From positions 1 through 64,000 of the forward strand of contig NZ_JH376597.1 in assembly GCF_000233955.1 (NCBI RefSeq): a stretch of DNA of 64,000 nt, given 5' to 3'. Position 1 is the stretch's first letter. Each line of letters begins with the position of its first letter. The translations under genes were made by a program, and so were the position numbers. This stretch comes from Paraprevotella clara YIT 11840. Lineage in GTDB: Bacteria; Bacteroidota; Bacteroidia; Bacteroidales; Bacteroidaceae. Shown piece by piece: positions 23,052 through 28,711 of the stretch. The notes beneath the pieces are model-generated. The model was not told where the DNA came from. It made no database searches and saw only the letters and a list, made by a program, of their open reading frames with translations.

Positions 23052-23696
23052 ATGCCCATGTATATTATCGGAATAGCCGGAGGCACGGGATCCGGAAAGA
23101 CCACGGTCGCACGAAAAATCATTGAGAGTCTCCCGAAAGGTGAAGTGGCCCTCATCCCGCAGGACTCATATTATATCGATGCCACGGACATGACCATGGA
23201 AGAACGCCGCAAAATCAACTATGACCATCCTTGCGCTTTCGACTGGAAGCTCTTGATCCGTCAGGTGAAAGAACTGAAAGCCGGACGGGCTATCGAACAA
23301 CCGACTTATTCATATTTGGAATGTAACAGGTTGAAAGAGACCATACACGTAGAACCCCGAAAGGTTATCCTGATAGAAGGCATACTCGCTTTGTCCAATA
23401 AAGAACTCCGGGACCTGATGGACATCAAAATCTTTGTAGATGCAGACTCCGACGAACGCCTCATCCGTGTCATCGAACGGGATATCATCGAACGGGGAAG
23501 AACCGTACAAATGGTAGTGGACCGCTATCGGGCCGTACTCAAACCCATGCATCTGGAATTCATCGAACCGACCAAACGCTATGCCGACCTTATCATTCCC
23601 CAAGGAGGAGAAAACGAGAAAGCCATCGAAATCATGCGTACTTACATCCTACACCATCTCAATCTCCATTTGGAACAAACGGGGCAAGCTCTATGA
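23052..23696 (+). CDS. udk: Uridine kinase
   Basis: 214 residues. Walker A is GIAGGTGSGKTTVARKI at the N-terminus, followed by QDSYYID, the NYDHPCAFDWKLL substrate motif, EQPTYSYLE, VILIEGILAL (Walker B-like) and the lid RDIIERGRT. It phosphorylates uridine and cytidine with GTP or ATP for pyrimidine salvage. ATG 23058 is a possible alternative start. The stop codon overlaps the next gene's ATG (ATGA, 23693-23696). Confidence 0.95.
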   Translation: MPMYIIGIAGGTGSGKTTVARKIIESLPKGEVALIPQDSYYIDATDMTMEERRKINYDHPCAFDWKLLIRQVKELKAGRAIEQPTYSYLECNRLKETIHVEPRKVILIEGILALSNKELRDLMDIKIFVDADSDERLIRVIERDIIERGRTVQMVVDRYRAVLKPMHLEFIEPTKRYADLIIPQGGENEKAIEIMRTYILHHLNLHLEQTGQAL

Positions 23697-23848
23697 AAGT
23701 CCGTATAAGCGAATTCGGATGGAAGGCCGGCTTCCGGCTATGCCGAAAACGACCGGATTTATGGAAAATCACGAGTAAGCGAGGGCAGAGCGGGGCGAAA
23801 ACGAAGTTTTTAGGCTCCGTTCTGCCGAACGGGAGCGATTTATGGAAA
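23693..23848 (+). repeat. Coding palindromic repeats, copies 1 and 2 (start of mltF-like gene)
   Basis: Copy 1 (from 23696, 69-bp period) and copy 2 (from 23765, 81-bp period) lie head to tail. Copy 2 is bounded by the direct repeat GATTTATGGAAA at 23756-23767 and 23837-23848 and contains a hairpin GGCAGA-G-CGG ... CCG-T-TCTGCC with AAAAC-GAA-GTTTT at its tip. Shared with the helicase copies: AAAATC..GAGTAAGC.AG.GCAGA at the left, TCTGCCGAACG..AGCGATTTAT at the right. Confidence 0.8.
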
Positions 23849-25090
23849 CACAATCTGCTGGCCTGCCTCTTGACCGTCCTTGCCGTCAATCTCGTATCCT
23901 GCGGAGAAAAAGAGGAGAAAAAAATATCCCCTTTGGGTATCACGGAAGAAGAATATGCGGAAACAGCTTACGACTTAGACCAGATACAGGAAGCCGGCGA
24001 ACTGATAGCCGTCACGCTGTCCGGTCCCGACACTTATTATGAATATAAGGGAAAAGGATTCGGACTGCAATTTGAATTGGCCGAACACTTTGCCGTGTCC
24101 ATCGGTGCCAAGCTCCGTATGGAAGCAGTACGCGATACGGCGGAGCTTTTCCAACGACTGAAAAAAGGAGAGGCAGACCTCATCGCATTGGAAATTCCGG
24201 AGAACCACATGACAGACACGGAACTGCAATTCTCCGGCGTCCGGTCGTGTCCGTCAGACAGTACGGCCGCAGTCAAAACCGGATGGGTCGTACGAAAGGA
24301 TGCCCCCTTCCTGGCCGAAGCCTTGGACGGATGGTATAAACCCGAGACACGGTCTTTCTTGCAAAAAAGGGAACAGTTGCGTCTGTCTCCCGGCGGAAGT
24401 GTAAAACGCCGTGTCCGTGCCCCCTTCCAGAATCGCGCCAAGGGCATTATCTCGCCGTACGACACTCATTTTATCCGTCATAGCCAAGCCATCGGGTGGG
24501 ACTGGCGGCTCATGGCCGCACAATGTTACCAAGAGTCCGGTTTCGACCCGGAGGCCGTATCGTGGGCCGGAGCACGCGGACTGATGCAGATTATGCCTGA
24601 AACAGCCGTACATCTCGGTTTGCCCGCCGACCAAATGCACCAGCCCGAAAAGAACATCAGTGCGGCAGCCCGGTACCTCCGTGAACTCGAACGTAAATTC
24701 AGCGATATCCCCGGCAGGTCGGAACGTATAAACTTTATCCTGGCGGCCTATAATGGAGGAACGGGACACGTTCGCGACGCCATGGCCTTGGCACGTAAAC
24801 ACGGCAAAAACCCGCAGTTGTGGAACGATGTGGCTCCTTTCATCCTCCGCCTGAGCCAACCGCAATATTACAACGACCCCGTAGTGCGTTACGGCTATCT
24901 GCGCGGAGAAGAGACCTACGGCTACGTGACTTCCATCCGTGAACGTTGGCTACGTTACCGTGCTGCCGTCCATGGTGGCACGACCGGTGCCGCGCCTGCC
25001 CCGTCACGCAAGAATTCGCGCGGAGGATTCAAAAGCAAAGTACTGAGTGCCGAAGAAGTGGAAGCCAAGTCCAAACAGAATACGCCATAA
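23693..25090 (+). CDS. MltF-like lytic transglycosylase lipoprotein with repeat-derived N-terminus
   Basis: 465 residues. After an unusual 52-residue leader comes a lipoprotein signal (LLACLLTVLAVNLVSC, Cys 70), a solute-binding (SBP_bac_3-like) domain at about 85-240 and a C-terminal SLT domain with the catalytic Glu in CYQESGFDPEA (about residue 280), then GARGLMQIMPETA and AAYNGGTGHV. MltF-type enzymes cut peptidoglycan glycan strands at the outer membrane, forming 1,6-anhydro-MurNAc ends. The first 52 codons consist of two tandem copies of an in-frame palindromic repeat (periods 69 and 81 bp) that also occurs in the next gene. They place a positively charged stretch ahead of the signal peptide; no later in-frame ATG, GTG or TTG start is visible before the signal. 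The ATG overlaps the udk stop by 4 bp. Confidence 0.88.
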   Translation: MKVRISEFGWKAGFRLCRKRPDLWKITSKRGQSGAKTKFLGSVLPNGSDLWKHNLLACLLTVLAVNLVSCGEKEEKKISPLGITEEEYAETAYDLDQIQEAGELIAVTLSGPDTYYEYKGKGFGLQFELAEHFAVSIGAKLRMEAVRDTAELFQRLKKGEADLIALEIPENHMTDTELQFSGVRSCPSDSTAAVKTGWVVRKDAPFLAEALDGWYKPETRSFLQKREQLRLSPGGSVKRRVRAPFQNRAKGIISPYDTHFIRHSQAIGWDWRLMAAQCYQESGFDPEAVSWAGARGLMQIMPETAVHLGLPADQMHQPEKNISAAARYLRELERKFSDIPGRSERINFILAAYNGGTGHVRDAMALARKHGKNPQLWNDVAPFILRLSQPQYYNDPVVRYGYLRGEETYGYVTSIRERWLRYRAAVHGGTTGAAPAPSRKNSRGGFKSKVLSAEEVEAKSKQNTP

Positions 25091-25093
25091 CCC

Positions 25094-28000
25094 ATGACGG
25101 AAGAGATTCAGGACATATTCGATGAAATCAGAAACATCATGCAGCCGGACATGGACTGTACCGCACGTTACCATGCCCTCGACGCGCTGTTGCTCCGTGC
25201 GCTGAAAGACCGGACCCGCCACAGTCCGGTGGATTTCACCCACACAGCCGCACGCCTATATTGGCTCTGCAAACAAACCGGCCATCCGTCCCACCCGTTG
25301 GAAGTGTTCCGTGCGCGGGCCGGACGAATACAAAAAGGGCTTTTCCTGCCCGACGGAGAGGATGAAGCCTACGACTTAAAAGCGGTCTGCGAAGGATTGG
25401 CCGCTTTTTACCAAACCCATGTTCCGGAAGACGTGCAAAAACGCCTGCCCCGCCATTGGCGACCCGCTCCCGCACCTGCCGAAAAAGTACCGCAGGCCAA
25501 ACGTATCCGGATAACGGTGCACCGGTGGGACGAGCATTTCATTTATGGAAAAGACCACACGCATCCCACGGAACAACTGTTGAAAGTGGAATATGCCGAC
25601 GAAACCGACCGCACGTTCGCCGACTTGAAAGAACAACTGTACGAAGGGGCGCAGCTCAATCTCTTATCGGTCAAAGCCATAAAGGCGGAAGGCGCATATC
25701 CTTATGTCCTAAAACCCGAGATGTTGGTTCTCGACCCGGATTTCCTGATTGACATCACAGCCTTGTGCGCCTGCATCAGACCGTACGGGTATTCGGCTTA
25801 CACCCACTTGTTGAACAAATTCGCTCCTCCGGCACGCTCTGCGGCCATACAGTTGGGAAATGCGGCCAACCAGTTTCTGGACGACTGCGTGAATGAAAAT
25901 CGCGATTTAGAGAGAGAAGAAACAAGCGAAAACGAAGTTTTCAGGCTTGGCTCTGCCGAACGTGAGCGATTTATCCAAAATCGCGATTTAAAGAGAGCAG
26001 ACCGGGCTTGCCCGGAGTCTGCCGGGCGTGAGCGATTTACCCAAAATGCAGACGGGACGGCAGAAGCGGAACTCTACCTGCGTTCCATGCAGAATTCCTT
26101 CCGGATCTCCCCTCTTGCCTGGTCCACCTTGCCGGACATCGACCGCGATTTCTTCAACCGCTGCGAAATGCAATTCCACCACATCCGGCAAACCGTACGC
26201 AACAGTTTCAGTGCCGCAGGCATCGACATCCGGAAAACGGAAGTGGAACTGGAGCCGTCTTTCCTTTGCGAAGCCCTCGGGTTGCAAGGACGTATGGACC
26301 TGCTCACCCGAAACGCCGACAAGTTAGTGGAACTGAAAAGCGGAAAAGCGGACGAATATCCCTACCGTAGCCCGAAGGACGAACACCGCCTGCAAATGGC
26401 CCTGTACAAAGAAATCCTGTATTATAACCTGGACCGCAGGCATGAACAGGTACAGTCTTACCTCTTCTATTCACGCTATCCCGGGCTTTATGCCGTCGAC
26501 GTGCCGCGCAGCCATATCCGCCGCGCCATGGCCCTGCGGAATGCCATCCTGCACATAGAGCACCGCCTGAGAAGGGGGGAATCCCGTGCGTTGATAGACG
26601 AGCTGACGGAAGAACGGCTCAACGTGAACGGACGGGGCGATCGGCTCTACACTCGTTACCTGCGCCCCCGCATGATGGAAATACTGACACCACTTCATGG
26701 CATGAGGGGCGCGGAAGCCGATTATTTCCATCGCTTCCTGACGTTTACCGCCCGCGAACAATTCCGCGCCAAAGTCGGGGACGACCGGGCGGACTCGCCG
26801 GGCGGGTTCTCCGAAACATGGTGCTGCGACACACTGACCAAACAACAGAACGGAAACATCCTGACCGGACTGAAACTGCATCCCGTCCCCGACGAGGAAG
26901 GTGCCATCGTGCGGCTGGATTTGAAACTTCCGGAATACGGCGAAGACTTCCTCCCGAACTTCCGGCAGGGCGACATGGTAATGCTCTACGAACGGAACCA
27001 CGAAGGGGACAACGTGACGAACAAACAGTTCTTCCGTTGTACCATAGAGGAAATCCATCCTGAACACATGCTGCTGAAACTATCTTACAAGCAGCGGAAT
27101 GCCGGAGTATTCCACCCCGACAGCCTTTATGCCATAGAGCCGGGTTACATGGACGCCACATTCAACCAAGCCTACTCGGGACTGTTCAGCCTGCTCACCG
27201 CCCCACGGGAACGGAAAGAGCTGCTGTTGGGCATACGGCCACCGGCCACCGATCCGTCCGTAAGGCTCCACCGGCATTACCTGAATGAAGAAATAGACCG
27301 TATCGTCCTGAAAGCCAAACAGGCCCGGGATTACTTCCTGCTTGTCGGACCGCCGGGGACAGGAAAGACGTCGGTAGCCTTGAAATCCATGGTGGAAGAG
27401 TTCTTGTCGGATTCTCCACAAAAGACCCTCCTGCTCATGGCTTATACCAACCGGGCTGTGGATGAAATCTGCCATACGCTGTCTGCCATCAACCCTGCTC
27501 CGGAATATATCCGCATCGGTCAGGAACTGAACTGCGCCCCGGACTTCCGGCCACGGCTCATGAAGCACGTCATCGGGGATGCCACCTCCCGAAAAGAAAT
27601 CTACGAGAAGTTGGCGCCCGTCAGGGTGTTTGCCGGCACCATCAGCAGCCTATGCAGCCAGACAGAGCTATTCAGCCTGAAAGTCATCGACGTGGCTATC
27701 ATCGACGAAGCCTCACAAGTGCTCGAGCCCCAACTGCTCCCCCTGCTATGCGCCACTACTGCGGTGAACCGGGGAGACTATAACCTGAACCGTCTGGCCA
27801 TCGGGAAGTTCATCCTCATCGGCGACCACAAGCAACTGCCCGCCGTCGTGAGCCAACCCCGGGAAATGTCACGGGTGACCGAGGATAGCCTGCAAGCCAT
27901 CGGGCTGACCGACTGCCGTAACTCCCTGTTTGAACGCCTGCACCGGCTGAGCAGCCTGCAAGGCACGAAAAACATCGTGGAAATGCTTCATCGCCAAGGA

Positions 28001-28711
28001 CGCATGCATCCGTCCATCTGCGAATTTGTCAACCGTAATTATTATAACGGCGGACTGGATGCCGTTCCCCTCCCCCATCAACAGGAACCACTGGCATTCG
28101 GCACCCGTCCGGACGATGACCGATGGACCGCCTTCGTGGCCGGTACACGTATGGCATTTATTTCCGTACAAGCCGACGAAGCAGAATATTACACGAAAAT
28201 CGAGAGTAAGCAAGAGCAGACCAAGCTTGCCCAAGGTCTGCCGAACGTGGGCGATTCATCCAAAAGCAACAAGCGGGAAGCCGAGACTGTGGCACGTCTG
28301 ATACATACCCTTTGCCAACTGTACAGCCGCTCGGGCATACCCTTCAGTCCCTGTAAGCAAATCGGAATTATCGTCCCCTTCCGCGCACAAATCGCCATGA
28401 TACGCAAAGCCTTGGCTGAACGGCACATTCCCGACACGGCCGACATCACCATCGACACGGTGGAACGTTATCAGGGCAGCCAACGCGACATCATCATATT
28501 CAGCACCACCGTCAGCCGTCCGTACCAGCTCTCCATCTTGTCCGAACCGGTCATGACAGACGGTCGGGAAATAGACCGCAAGCTCAACGTGGCCCTCACC
28601 CGGGCACGCAAGCAATTTTTCATGACCGGAAACGAAACGCTGCTCCGGAATTGCACGGCCTACCGGAAGTTTCTGGATTTCTTAAGCAAAGAGCAAATCC
28701 TACGTCTGTAA
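25094..28711 (+). CDS. Dna2-like SF1 helicase with Cas4/RecB-type nuclease domain, carrying in-frame repeat insertions
   Basis: 1205 residues. A PD-(D/E)XK nuclease core lies at about 395-420 (GLQGRMDLLT, then LVELKSGK), upstream of an SF1B helicase: Walker A LVGPPGTGKTSVAL (about 750), IIDEASQVLEPQ (about 870), LIGDHKQLPAVV (about 910), QGRMHPSICEFVNRNYYNG, VERYQGSQRDIIIFS and LNVALTRARKQFFMTGN (1120-1172). This order is that of Dna2-type enzymes, which process 5' flaps and DNA ends. Three stretches interrupt it: residues 268-294, 295-316 and 1035-1056 are encoded by the palindromic coding repeat. The third falls between helicase motifs IV and V; none hits a catalytic motif. It starts 3 bp after the mltF-like gene, probably in the same operon. 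Confidence 0.9.
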   Translation: MTEEIQDIFDEIRNIMQPDMDCTARYHALDALLLRALKDRTRHSPVDFTHTAARLYWLCKQTGHPSHPLEVFRARAGRIQKGLFLPDGEDEAYDLKAVCEGLAAFYQTHVPEDVQKRLPRHWRPAPAPAEKVPQAKRIRITVHRWDEHFIYGKDHTHPTEQLLKVEYADETDRTFADLKEQLYEGAQLNLLSVKAIKAEGAYPYVLKPEMLVLDPDFLIDITALCACIRPYGYSAYTHLLNKFAPPARSAAIQLGNAANQFLDDCVNENRDLEREETSENEVFRLGSAERERFIQNRDLKRADRACPESAGRERFTQNADGTAEAELYLRSMQNSFRISPLAWSTLPDIDRDFFNRCEMQFHHIRQTVRNSFSAAGIDIRKTEVELEPSFLCEALGLQGRMDLLTRNADKLVELKSGKADEYPYRSPKDEHRLQMALYKEILYYNLDRRHEQVQSYLFYSRYPGLYAVDVPRSHIRRAMALRNAILHIEHRLRRGESRALIDELTEERLNVNGRGDRLYTRYLRPRMMEILTPLHGMRGAEADYFHRFLTFTAREQFRAKVGDDRADSPGGFSETWCCDTLTKQQNGNILTGLKLHPVPDEEGAIVRLDLKLPEYGEDFLPNFRQGDMVMLYERNHEGDNVTNKQFFRCTIEEIHPEHMLLKLSYKQRNAGVFHPDSLYAIEPGYMDATFNQAYSGLFSLLTAPRERKELLLGIRPPATDPSVRLHRHYLNEEIDRIVLKAKQARDYFLLVGPPGTGKTSVALKSMVEEFLSDSPQKTLLLMAYTNRAVDEICHTLSAINPAPEYIRIGQELNCAPDFRPRLMKHVIGDATSRKEIYEKLAPVRVFAGTISSLCSQTELFSLKVIDVAIIDEASQVLEPQLLPLLCATTAVNRGDYNLNRLAIGKFILIGDHKQLPAVVSQPREMSRVTEDSLQAIGLTDCRNSLFERLHRLSSLQGTKNIVEMLHRQGRMHPSICEFVNRNYYNGGLDAVPLPHQQEPLAFGTRPDDDRWTAFVAGTRMAFISVQADEAEYYTKIESKQEQTKLAQGLPNVGDSSKSNKREAETVARLIHTLCQLYSRSGIPFSPCKQIGIIVPFRAQIAMIRKALAERHIPDTADITIDTVERYQGSQRDIIIFSTTVSRPYQLSILSEPVMTDGREIDRKLNVALTRARKQFFMTGNETLLRNCTAYRKFLDFLSKEQILRL
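25896..26042 (+). repeat. Coding palindromic repeats, copies 3 and 4 (tandem, in helicase gene)
   Basis: Two head-to-tail copies start AAAATCGCGATTTA at 25896 and 25977; the next AAAAT is at 26043, giving periods of 81 and 66 bp. Both end GAGCGATTTA.CCAAAAT. Copy 3 keeps the AAAACGAAGTTTT tip of copy 2; copy 4 has the shorter hairpin GCAGACCGGGC-TTG-CCCGGAGTCTGC. Here the repeat is read as NRDLxRxx ... GRERFxQ, a frame different from that used in copies 2 and 5. Confidence 0.85.
28196..28261 (+). repeat. Coding palindromic repeat, copy 5 (in helicase gene)
   Basis: AAAATCGAGAGTAAGCAAGAG, then GCAGACC, a 12-nt loop and GGTCTGC, then CGAACGTGGGCGATTCATCC, with AAAA again on the right: a 66-bp period (22 codons). 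It is read in the same frame as copy 2 (KIESKQEQTK ...). Confidence 0.8.

Follow-up and report, generated by a model that had tools for sequence, protein, structure and literature searches.

A palindromic repeat inserted in frame into protein genes of Paraprevotella clara, and its probable mobility

Copies of the repeat in two adjacent genes

The subject of this work is a short palindromic repeat that lies inside two adjacent genes of Paraprevotella clara YIT 11840, one coding for a lytic transglycosylase and the other for a helicase which we take to be DNA2-like. Both genes are located in a 64,000-nt stretch of contig NZ_JH376597.1 (the window), and all coordinates given here are positions in this stretch (Table 1). 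The window's own genome is designated G000, compared genomes have other G numbers and loci have L numbers.

The initial annotation of the window described five copies of the repeat and labelled the transglycosylase MltF-like. We searched for them with two covariance models: R1, built from 24 G000 copies including the window copies 25977 and 28196, and R2, built from 76 sequences (three from G000 and 73 from other genomes) with no window copy among them. An unfiltered R1 scan of the whole window found the copies at 23765, 25896, 25977 and 28196 with E values of 2.6e-13, 2.5e-9, 1.5e-18 and 2.2e-17, respectively, the next-best match being only at E 6.1. When R2 was applied to positions 23600-28400, these four copies were again recovered, with E values of 1.1e-13, 5.2e-8, 4.2e-16 and 4.6e-12, and no other match was below E 2.2. 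A right-end pattern with up to three mismatches allowed had four matches in the window and none in 100 shuffles.

The remaining stretch, at 23696, is matched up to E 10 neither by R1 (whole window) nor by R2 (23600-28400), and therefore we count four copies rather than five. With two models and filters off, it was dropped as a copy. The outer stem AAGTCCG/CGGATTT can still be formed there; the orthologous stretch in the sister genome G014 is not element-like, and five congeners have no comparable N-terminal extension. It may be at most a decayed relic of the element, or plain host sequence. The reported lengths in multiples of three and the absence of in-frame stops hold for the four inserts of 81, 81, 66 and 66 bp, but the 69-bp length belongs to the unsupported copy.

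Table 1. Genes and repeat copies at the locus. R1 scores are covariance model bit scores.
Feature	Position	Strand	Details
Host gene 1, lytic transglycosylase, 465 aa	23693..25090	+	SLT domain PF01464, Pfam E 2.3e-25
Copy 1 of the initial annotation, not supported as a copy	23696..23764	+	no covariance model match up to E 10
Element copy	23765..23845	+	81-bp insert, longer central hairpin, phase 0, peptide KITSKRGQSGAKTKFLGSVLPNGSDLW, R1 60.4 bits
Host gene 2, helicase, 1205 aa	25094..28711	+	Pfam PDDEXK_1, AAA_11/AAA_12
Element copy	25896..25976	+	81-bp insert, phase 1, TTA in place of the usual TAA, R1 45.6 bits
Element copy, in tandem with the 25896 copy	25977..26042	+	66-bp insert, phase 1, TTA in place of TAA, R1 80 bits
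Element copy	28196..28261	+	66-bp insert, 22 aa KIESKQEQTKLAQGLPNVGDSS, phase 0, C-terminal part of the helicase, R1 75.6 bits

The repeat across the genome

In the 4.23-Mb genome the covariance model has 32 matches at E <=0.1, of which 31 score at least 58 bits and one is weak (38 bits). The expectation that further copies exist in the genome is borne out by the 28 matches additional to those discussed above. The right-end pattern, again with up to three mismatches, occurs at 27 places genome-wide, compared to one for the reversed pattern. All counts over 31 copies exclude the weak match C21:334840 (38 bits) and the 23696 stretch.

The insert is 66 bp long in 27 of the 31 copies, 65 bp in two (L036, upstream of a gene, and L049, at a gene end) and 81 bp in two. 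The usual unit is thus 66 bp or 22 codons. It has an outer stem (AAATCGC/GCGATTT), two conserved strands that look unpaired (GAKTAAGCGAG and CCGAGCGNGAG) and an inner hairpin whose sequence varies, and it is inserted at a G|AA junction: G precedes the insert in 25/31 copies and AA follows it directly in all 31. As AA is found on both sides of the insert in 31/31 copies and is also the target, the sequence does not distinguish an AA target from a 2-bp duplication.

Six neighbouring pairs of sites are separated by no more than 5 kb, compared to 1.08 expected for 31 sites (P 0.0006, the genome being treated as one line), in keeping with copying to nearby sites. The two 81-bp inserts are those at 23765 and 25896, located 2.1 kb apart in the neighbouring window genes. 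Both contain the same extra or enlarged hairpin, GCGAAAACGAAGTTTT followed by TAGGC or CAGGC, and the shared hairpin together with the short distance suggests local copying. At L038, a truncated copy (AAAATCGCGAGTAAGTATATCTAA) stands directly before an intact one; it appears to have resulted from an internal deletion joining both ends.

Empty sites in relatives

For 30 sites, the two flanks were joined and compared to 11 of the 17 congeners and to six genomes of other families. Matches were obtained in 11/11 congeners and 0/6 of the other genomes, and the matched sites were then aligned. The 28196 insert of the helicase is represented by exactly 22 missing residues in 5/5 congeners. At the middle pair (25896/25977), two congeners are shorter by exactly 49 residues and three by 47, the latter having two extra residues. 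In the transglycosylase the element sits in the N-terminal part, and five congener orthologues (69-79% identity) can be aligned only from residues 48-54 onwards; G014 has a gap at the place of the 23765 copy.

G014 is the closest relative tested. Fourteen of the 30 joined-flank segments were matched there in one piece with 85-97% identity, and at 11 of these sites, the 28196 copy among them, the two genomes differ by exactly 66 bp. The other three are L053 and L032, with small indels or weak right flanks, and the 25896-26042 site (L329 / L359), which carries a 12-bp in-frame remnant coding for four residues, RFIQ. To judge from this remnant, decay of the element can leave small in-frame footprints. 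Eleven further sites are filled in G014 as well: nine have flanks matched in two pieces with a model match between them, and L031 and L035 were counted as filled from model matches and flanks. After leaving out L038, L041, L044, L047 and the 23696-23845 block, where G014 lacks the element yet has the copy-1 stretch, 25 decided sites remain. The two sister species differ at 14 of them, pointing to a recent burst and to decay by in-frame deletion.

These empty sites agree with the earlier proposal of a mobile palindrome inserted in frame and absent from orthologues, as neither the congeners nor G014 share the segments. They also refute the possibility that the host proteins have had these segments since ancestral times and that a shared peptide function makes the segments alike. 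The 23765 and 28196 copies are indeed read in the same frame and are alike as peptides. However, the helicase inserts are missing in five congeners, G014 has neither of these two copies and retains only four residues at 25896-26042, and the repeat occurs in two reading frames, in unrelated host proteins and outside genes too. An ancestral protein repeat is virtually excluded.

Host genes, reading frames and orientation

Genes were assigned from open frames and codon usage, and translations were checked singly. Nineteen of the 31 copies span an open reading frame (ORF) in sense orientation (17 independent sites) and six overlap the 3' end of an ORF, also in sense. The others are an antisense copy at a 5' end (L056) and five copies counted as intergenic, including L036 despite its 18-bp overlap with a possible longer start of the next ORF. 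For independent sites, the tandem 25896/25977 and the paralogues L044/L047 were each merged; L047, L053 and the helicase copies are below the codon-usage cut and were counted as genic by likeness to L044 (L047) or by Pfam.

All 19 ORF-spanning copies have a length divisible by three. Of the 17 independent spanning sites, 15 are read in the open frame and two in the TAA-bearing one (P 0.0017), the expectation being taken from the share of GAA codons, which lead to the TAA frame, among the GAA sites in window ORFs (755/1551). The interior copies in the TAA frame (L034, 25896 and 25977) have TTA instead of TAA in 3/3 cases, whereas a stop is missing at that codon in only 2/28 other copies (P 0.0022; this is the stricter version of the test, replacing 2.2e-4, as it counts the two other stop-less copies). 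At gene ends, the TAA frame is used by 4/6 copies, and the stop codon then comes from the element. Such a pattern is what selection for a tolerable protein would be expected to produce. The translations place the 23765 and 28196 copies in one phase and 25896 and 25977 in another, as had been noticed earlier. The use of two frames, with TAA avoided or lost, means that it is the DNA and not one peptide that is conserved, and the initial annotation was right on this point.

Over the 31 copies, the numbers of stop-free frames are similar in antisense (44) and sense (42). Nevertheless, 23 of the 24 independent genic sites are in sense (P 1.6e-4 against the GAA strand share of 0.62, which was measured in window ORFs only). 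GAA strand preference explains part of this bias, and selection, transcription or target context may account for the rest.

Pfam matches reveal a variety of host proteins outside the window, housekeeping-type ones included. Among them are a bacterial DNA topoisomerase (L033), a DEAD helicase with a DbpA domain (L029), UvrD/PcrA (L055) and a class II tRNA synthetase (L037). Others are YceG (L046; presumably MltG), LPG synthase (L042), an ABC-2 permease (L028), an ABC ATPase (L053), a radical SAM protein (L051) and an outer membrane efflux protein (L034). The element is located at the 3' end of genes for a family 28 glycosyltransferase (L040, which we assume to be MurG-like), SusD (L032), DUF6621 (L049) and a twin ABC ATPase (L052). 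No Pfam match was found in 5/20 host proteins scanned.

An AlphaFold model of the C-terminal part of the helicase, built with seven sequences, has a mean predicted local distance difference test score of 60.8 and a predicted template modelling score of 0.51. The 28196 insert (residues 298-319 of the model) falls within a low-confidence segment, 293-319, with more confident elements on either side. The model is only suggestive and serves as an illustration.

Hairpin structure and covariation

In the alignment of 24 G000 copies, five out of five covariation measures exceed those of shuffled alignments (0 to 2 of 500 shuffles as high). Among the 76 diverse members, standard pairs make up 92.4% of the stems compared to 75.6% after shuffling, and cells with double changes number 270 compared to 68.8; sliding the partner strands reduces pairing to 28-46%. 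Outer-stem covariation was also checked in 75 of 128 non-redundant sequences. They have 41 distinct left outer stems, paired at 0.886 as against a shuffled maximum of 0.693. In alignment A4 the invariant-looking strands are partly so by construction, as most members were found by a pattern demanding them; the outer stems and the inner hairpin were outside this pattern.

Among 1095 cells, 21 have G.T and 14 have A.C, a difference that is not significant (P 0.31). Since selection at the RNA level should favour G.U over A.C, a DNA hairpin is indicated, and the compensating changes in the stems likewise suggest that the DNA itself would fold. The GCGAG and CGAGC strands could pair with two sheared G.A pairs mid-way, forming a tandem G.A motif. 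Some branches of the family end in GGCGAAGCC, which we assume to contain an unusually stable DNA mini-hairpin.

A superfamily in Bacteroidales

The G000 repeat is the gene-invading branch of an order-wide superfamily whose members in other genera lie more often between genes. When named genomes were scanned with a pattern, at least 118 stretches were obtained; 79 of the 80 titles among the matches listed are Bacteroidales and one is labelled Clostridia. The listed carriers include Prevotella, Xylanibacter ruminicola D31d, Alistipes, Tidjanibacter, Rikenellaceae, Muribaculaceae, Coprobacter and Porphyromonadaceae. Rickettsia does not appear among these 80 titles, which does not prove its absence from that genus.

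R2 at E 1e-6 matched 68/393 genomes of the order (own genome included), representing 45/205 genera. In a phylum sample of 394 genomes, matches were confined to the own genome and one from another family of the class. As 12 candidates were scored per genome (12/32 recovered in G000), these counts are lower bounds and presence may be underestimated. L353 (G328, E 3.3e-12) is a single clear member outside the order and was possibly transferred. Closer to P. clara, the distribution is patchy: 15 of the 60 relatives and own genome taken together have matches at E 1e-3, with none in 10/17 congeners. Model matches number 57 in G034, 41 in G027, 35 in G031, 32 in G000, 24 in G036, 17 in G014, nine in G026 and six in G037.

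Only 4/26 copies examined in G027, G031, G034 and G036 span an ORF of at least 90 aa, all in antisense. In-frame cases are nevertheless found beyond P. clara: L145 lies inside the Topoisom_bac domain in a Rikenellaceae metagenome-assembled genome, L171 where an AAA-ATPase_like domain ends, and L203, on a putative viral contig, follows a MutS-I domain. To judge from its sequence, L070 would be an insertion into a protein that we presume to be of Rhs type, although Pfam gave no match.

Copies are held by 37 stretches of putative viral contigs. One of these copies neighbours a portal gene (L206), another coincides with the beginning of a PAPS-reductase gene (L220) and a third falls within the 3' region of an ORF for a reverse transcriptase (L223); at L208 two similar ORFs have the same insert. 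Carriage of the elements by phages is therefore plausible. A blastn search of plasmid and phage collections with one copy found nothing.

Two groups of copies in this wider set have features of their own. All nine listed copies of G026 lie within 45 kb (G026:C1:2217466-2262524), and the flanks of L066 and L077, the loci read there, are identical; this cluster looks like an amplified locus rather than the result of jumping. In G027 and G036 (L065, L074, L370, L371, L374) copies are preceded by GCAAAGTTACG or GCAAAGGTACG, presumably a Bacteroidales promoter box in reverse orientation; by inserting next to promoters, the element may affect expression.

Relation to known repeats

Rickettsia palindromic elements (RPEs), reportedly described by Ogata in 2000, are the closest parallel in behaviour. 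They are palindromes of about 105-150 bp found in frame in many unrelated genes and also between genes, and their means of movement is not established (PMC10969869, PMC2229807). The initial annotation compared the window copies to RPEs, and in-frame insertion into unrelated protein genes whose orthologues lack the insert justifies this comparison. By description, the present repeat is nevertheless set apart by its size (66-81 bp) and its host order, and by its conserved internal strands, varying and covarying stems and G|AA junction. It looks like a family that behaves like RPEs yet is separate from them.

RPEs are not the only case of this kind: one study reports repetitive extragenic palindromic (REP) sequences inside genes of Opitutus terrae, Thauera and others, the affected genes in these other phyla including ones for helicases, repair and tRNA synthetases, as well as CGTC repeats in Bacteroidetes, apparently without a dedicated transposase (PMC3733652). 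Our repeat resembles REPs, as outlined there, in being a short hairpin, mostly intergenic, with some copies in genes of these same classes. Unlike REPs, which are described as a single hairpin of 20-40 bp with a GTAG/CGTC tag, it has two stems split by conserved strands, is about 66-85 bp long and has no tag that we have seen. With miniature inverted-repeat transposable elements (MITEs) and enterobacterial repetitive intergenic consensus sequences it shares a non-autonomous, multi-copy nature and occasional coding fusions (PMC10969869). In contrast to these, its outer stems are not conserved and no partner insertion sequence (IS) was found in the sequence examined. No description of this repeat was found among the matches listed in open-licence literature, motif letters included.

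In-frame palindromes are best known from Rickettsia, obligate intracellular bacteria that are difficult to study genetically and in which the mode of spread has yet to be established. The same behaviour is now seen in gut and rumen bacteria of one order, and at least one of the superfamily's carriers, Xylanibacter ruminicola D31d, has been cultured. Element movement and protein tolerance become testable with sister species that differ at so many decided sites. Odd inserts in predicted proteins are likewise accounted for by the family, which could be used as a strain marker.

Proposed mechanism and alternatives

We think it very probable that the repeat is a non-autonomous mobile palindrome, copied as a hairpin and inserted at G|AA, its insertions then being filtered by selection. 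A folded single strand of DNA would be the mobile form; a factor acting in trans, encoded by a phage or at another place in the cell, would copy it and insert it at GAA sites, frequently close to the donor copy. Genic insertions would survive selection where the frame is open and a tolerated loop or tail is added to the protein. A bolder version can be proposed tentatively, as less likely than not: an order-wide superfamily of hairpins recognised by shape and conserved internal strands and not by their ends, copied as single-stranded DNA by an undescribed enzyme, carried between hosts by phages and repeatedly enlarging housekeeping proteins by 22-codon units in some lineages.

Several points weigh against the mobile palindrome or limit it. 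Its mobility is deduced from presence and absence between species and the in-frame reading of inserts is a prediction, both drawn from genome sequences, and no mobilising enzyme was identified among the candidates examined (Y1_Tnp, RVT_1, IS with half-sites, neighbour clusters). Two out of five covariation measures are unexceptional in the 76 diverse members (double-change pairs as high in 28/500 shuffles, further pair types in 53/500), the folding of single copies does not surpass that of shuffled sequences in every case (z between -0.36 and -3.70 over eight stretches), and a young age of the copies could be another reason for the scarcity of G.T pairs. At 6/10 ungapped sites, G000 and G014 have different bases at position -1, compared to a flank average of 8.6%, so the insertion junction is not fully understood. 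All six differing bases are third codon positions. Alteration of junction bases on insertion was not adopted as an explanation, as outgroups at L042 and L037 show the change to be in G014. Finally, a crude gene call over 107 superfamily copies (26 more, near locus edges, were excluded) has 54 intergenic, 35 spanning an ORF of at least 90 aa and 18 overlapping an ORF end, and the spanning ones are 22 sense and 13 antisense. Gene invasion is therefore not the general habit of the superfamily.

The orientation of copies bears on the idea that this is a structured RNA element that owes its movement or retention to an RNA function such as reverse transcription, cis-regulation or mRNA stabilisation. 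The sense bias of independent genic sites in G000 speaks for it, and RVT_1 is present in G000, G014, G031 and G034. Yet the spanning copies of named genomes have the mixed orientation given above, G.T is not significantly preferred over A.C, the window has no Rfam matches at gathering thresholds, and RVT_1 has no match at E 1e-5 in the carriers G026, G027, G036 and G037. Absent from several high-copy genomes, an RVT_1 reverse transcriptase was rejected as the general answer, and we consider an RNA element unlikely.

REPs of one type are mobilised by RAYTs (REP-associated tyrosine transposases), HUH Y1 enzymes related to IS200/IS605, and such an enzyme could act on our hairpins. The hairpin form, the intergenic habit in other genera and the existence of intragenic REPs (PMC3733652) are in line with this, as is the occurrence in Bacteroidetes of Y1 subclasses, one of them with atypical flanking structures (PMC6006769). 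Y1_Tnp matches were found in the carriers G034, G036, G010 and G054. However, at E 1e-5 the Y1_Tnp model (PF01797) finds nothing in the carriers G000, G014, G026, G027, G031 and G037, which refutes such an enzyme as a general answer; no GTAG or CGTC tag was seen by eye in the alignments, and no Y1 gene is prominent among the neighbour clusters. A RAYT-type origin is accordingly highly improbable.

A MITE, whose ends would be recognition sites of a DDE-type IS that was lost or resides elsewhere, would account for the terminal inverted repeat, AA on both sides and the multi-copy state. In the congeners G010 and G017 (L062, L063, L079, about 1394-1651) a palindrome of another branch is located mid-way in a repeat of about 258 bp present at different loci, which is also compatible with a MITE. 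On the other hand, a DDE-type transposase needs conserved ends, and the outer stems here vary and covary. Searching about 1.35 Mb of sequence on both strands found 15 isolated left halves, three of them with a right half further off; for the ORFs between these half-sites the Pfam results are mannose-6-phosphate isomerase, a sub-threshold AraA match or no match, and the third gap has no ORF of 100 aa. No half-site pair around a recognisable transposase was found in the approximately 1.35 Mb examined. There is little chance that the repeat is a MITE of this kind.

If the non-autonomous palindrome is copied as a folded strand, as we prefer to think, a tyrosine integrase might be the enzyme, given that integron integrases act on folded single-strand substrates (attC). 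Tyrosine integrases are common in mobile DNA of Bacteroidales, and the integrase cluster, found within 2.5 kb of copies at only 4/178 loci (L087, L162, L192, L237), may reflect this background. Phage_integrase was found in 4/4 of its proteins scanned, out of five. We regard a tyrosine integrase as a weak lead and decidedly unlikely to be the mobiliser. The genes neighbouring 178 loci comprise 728 ORFs, and the 25 clusters listed span two to four loci each; the integrase cluster is one of the two most frequent and the only recognised mobility gene among the neighbour clusters examined.

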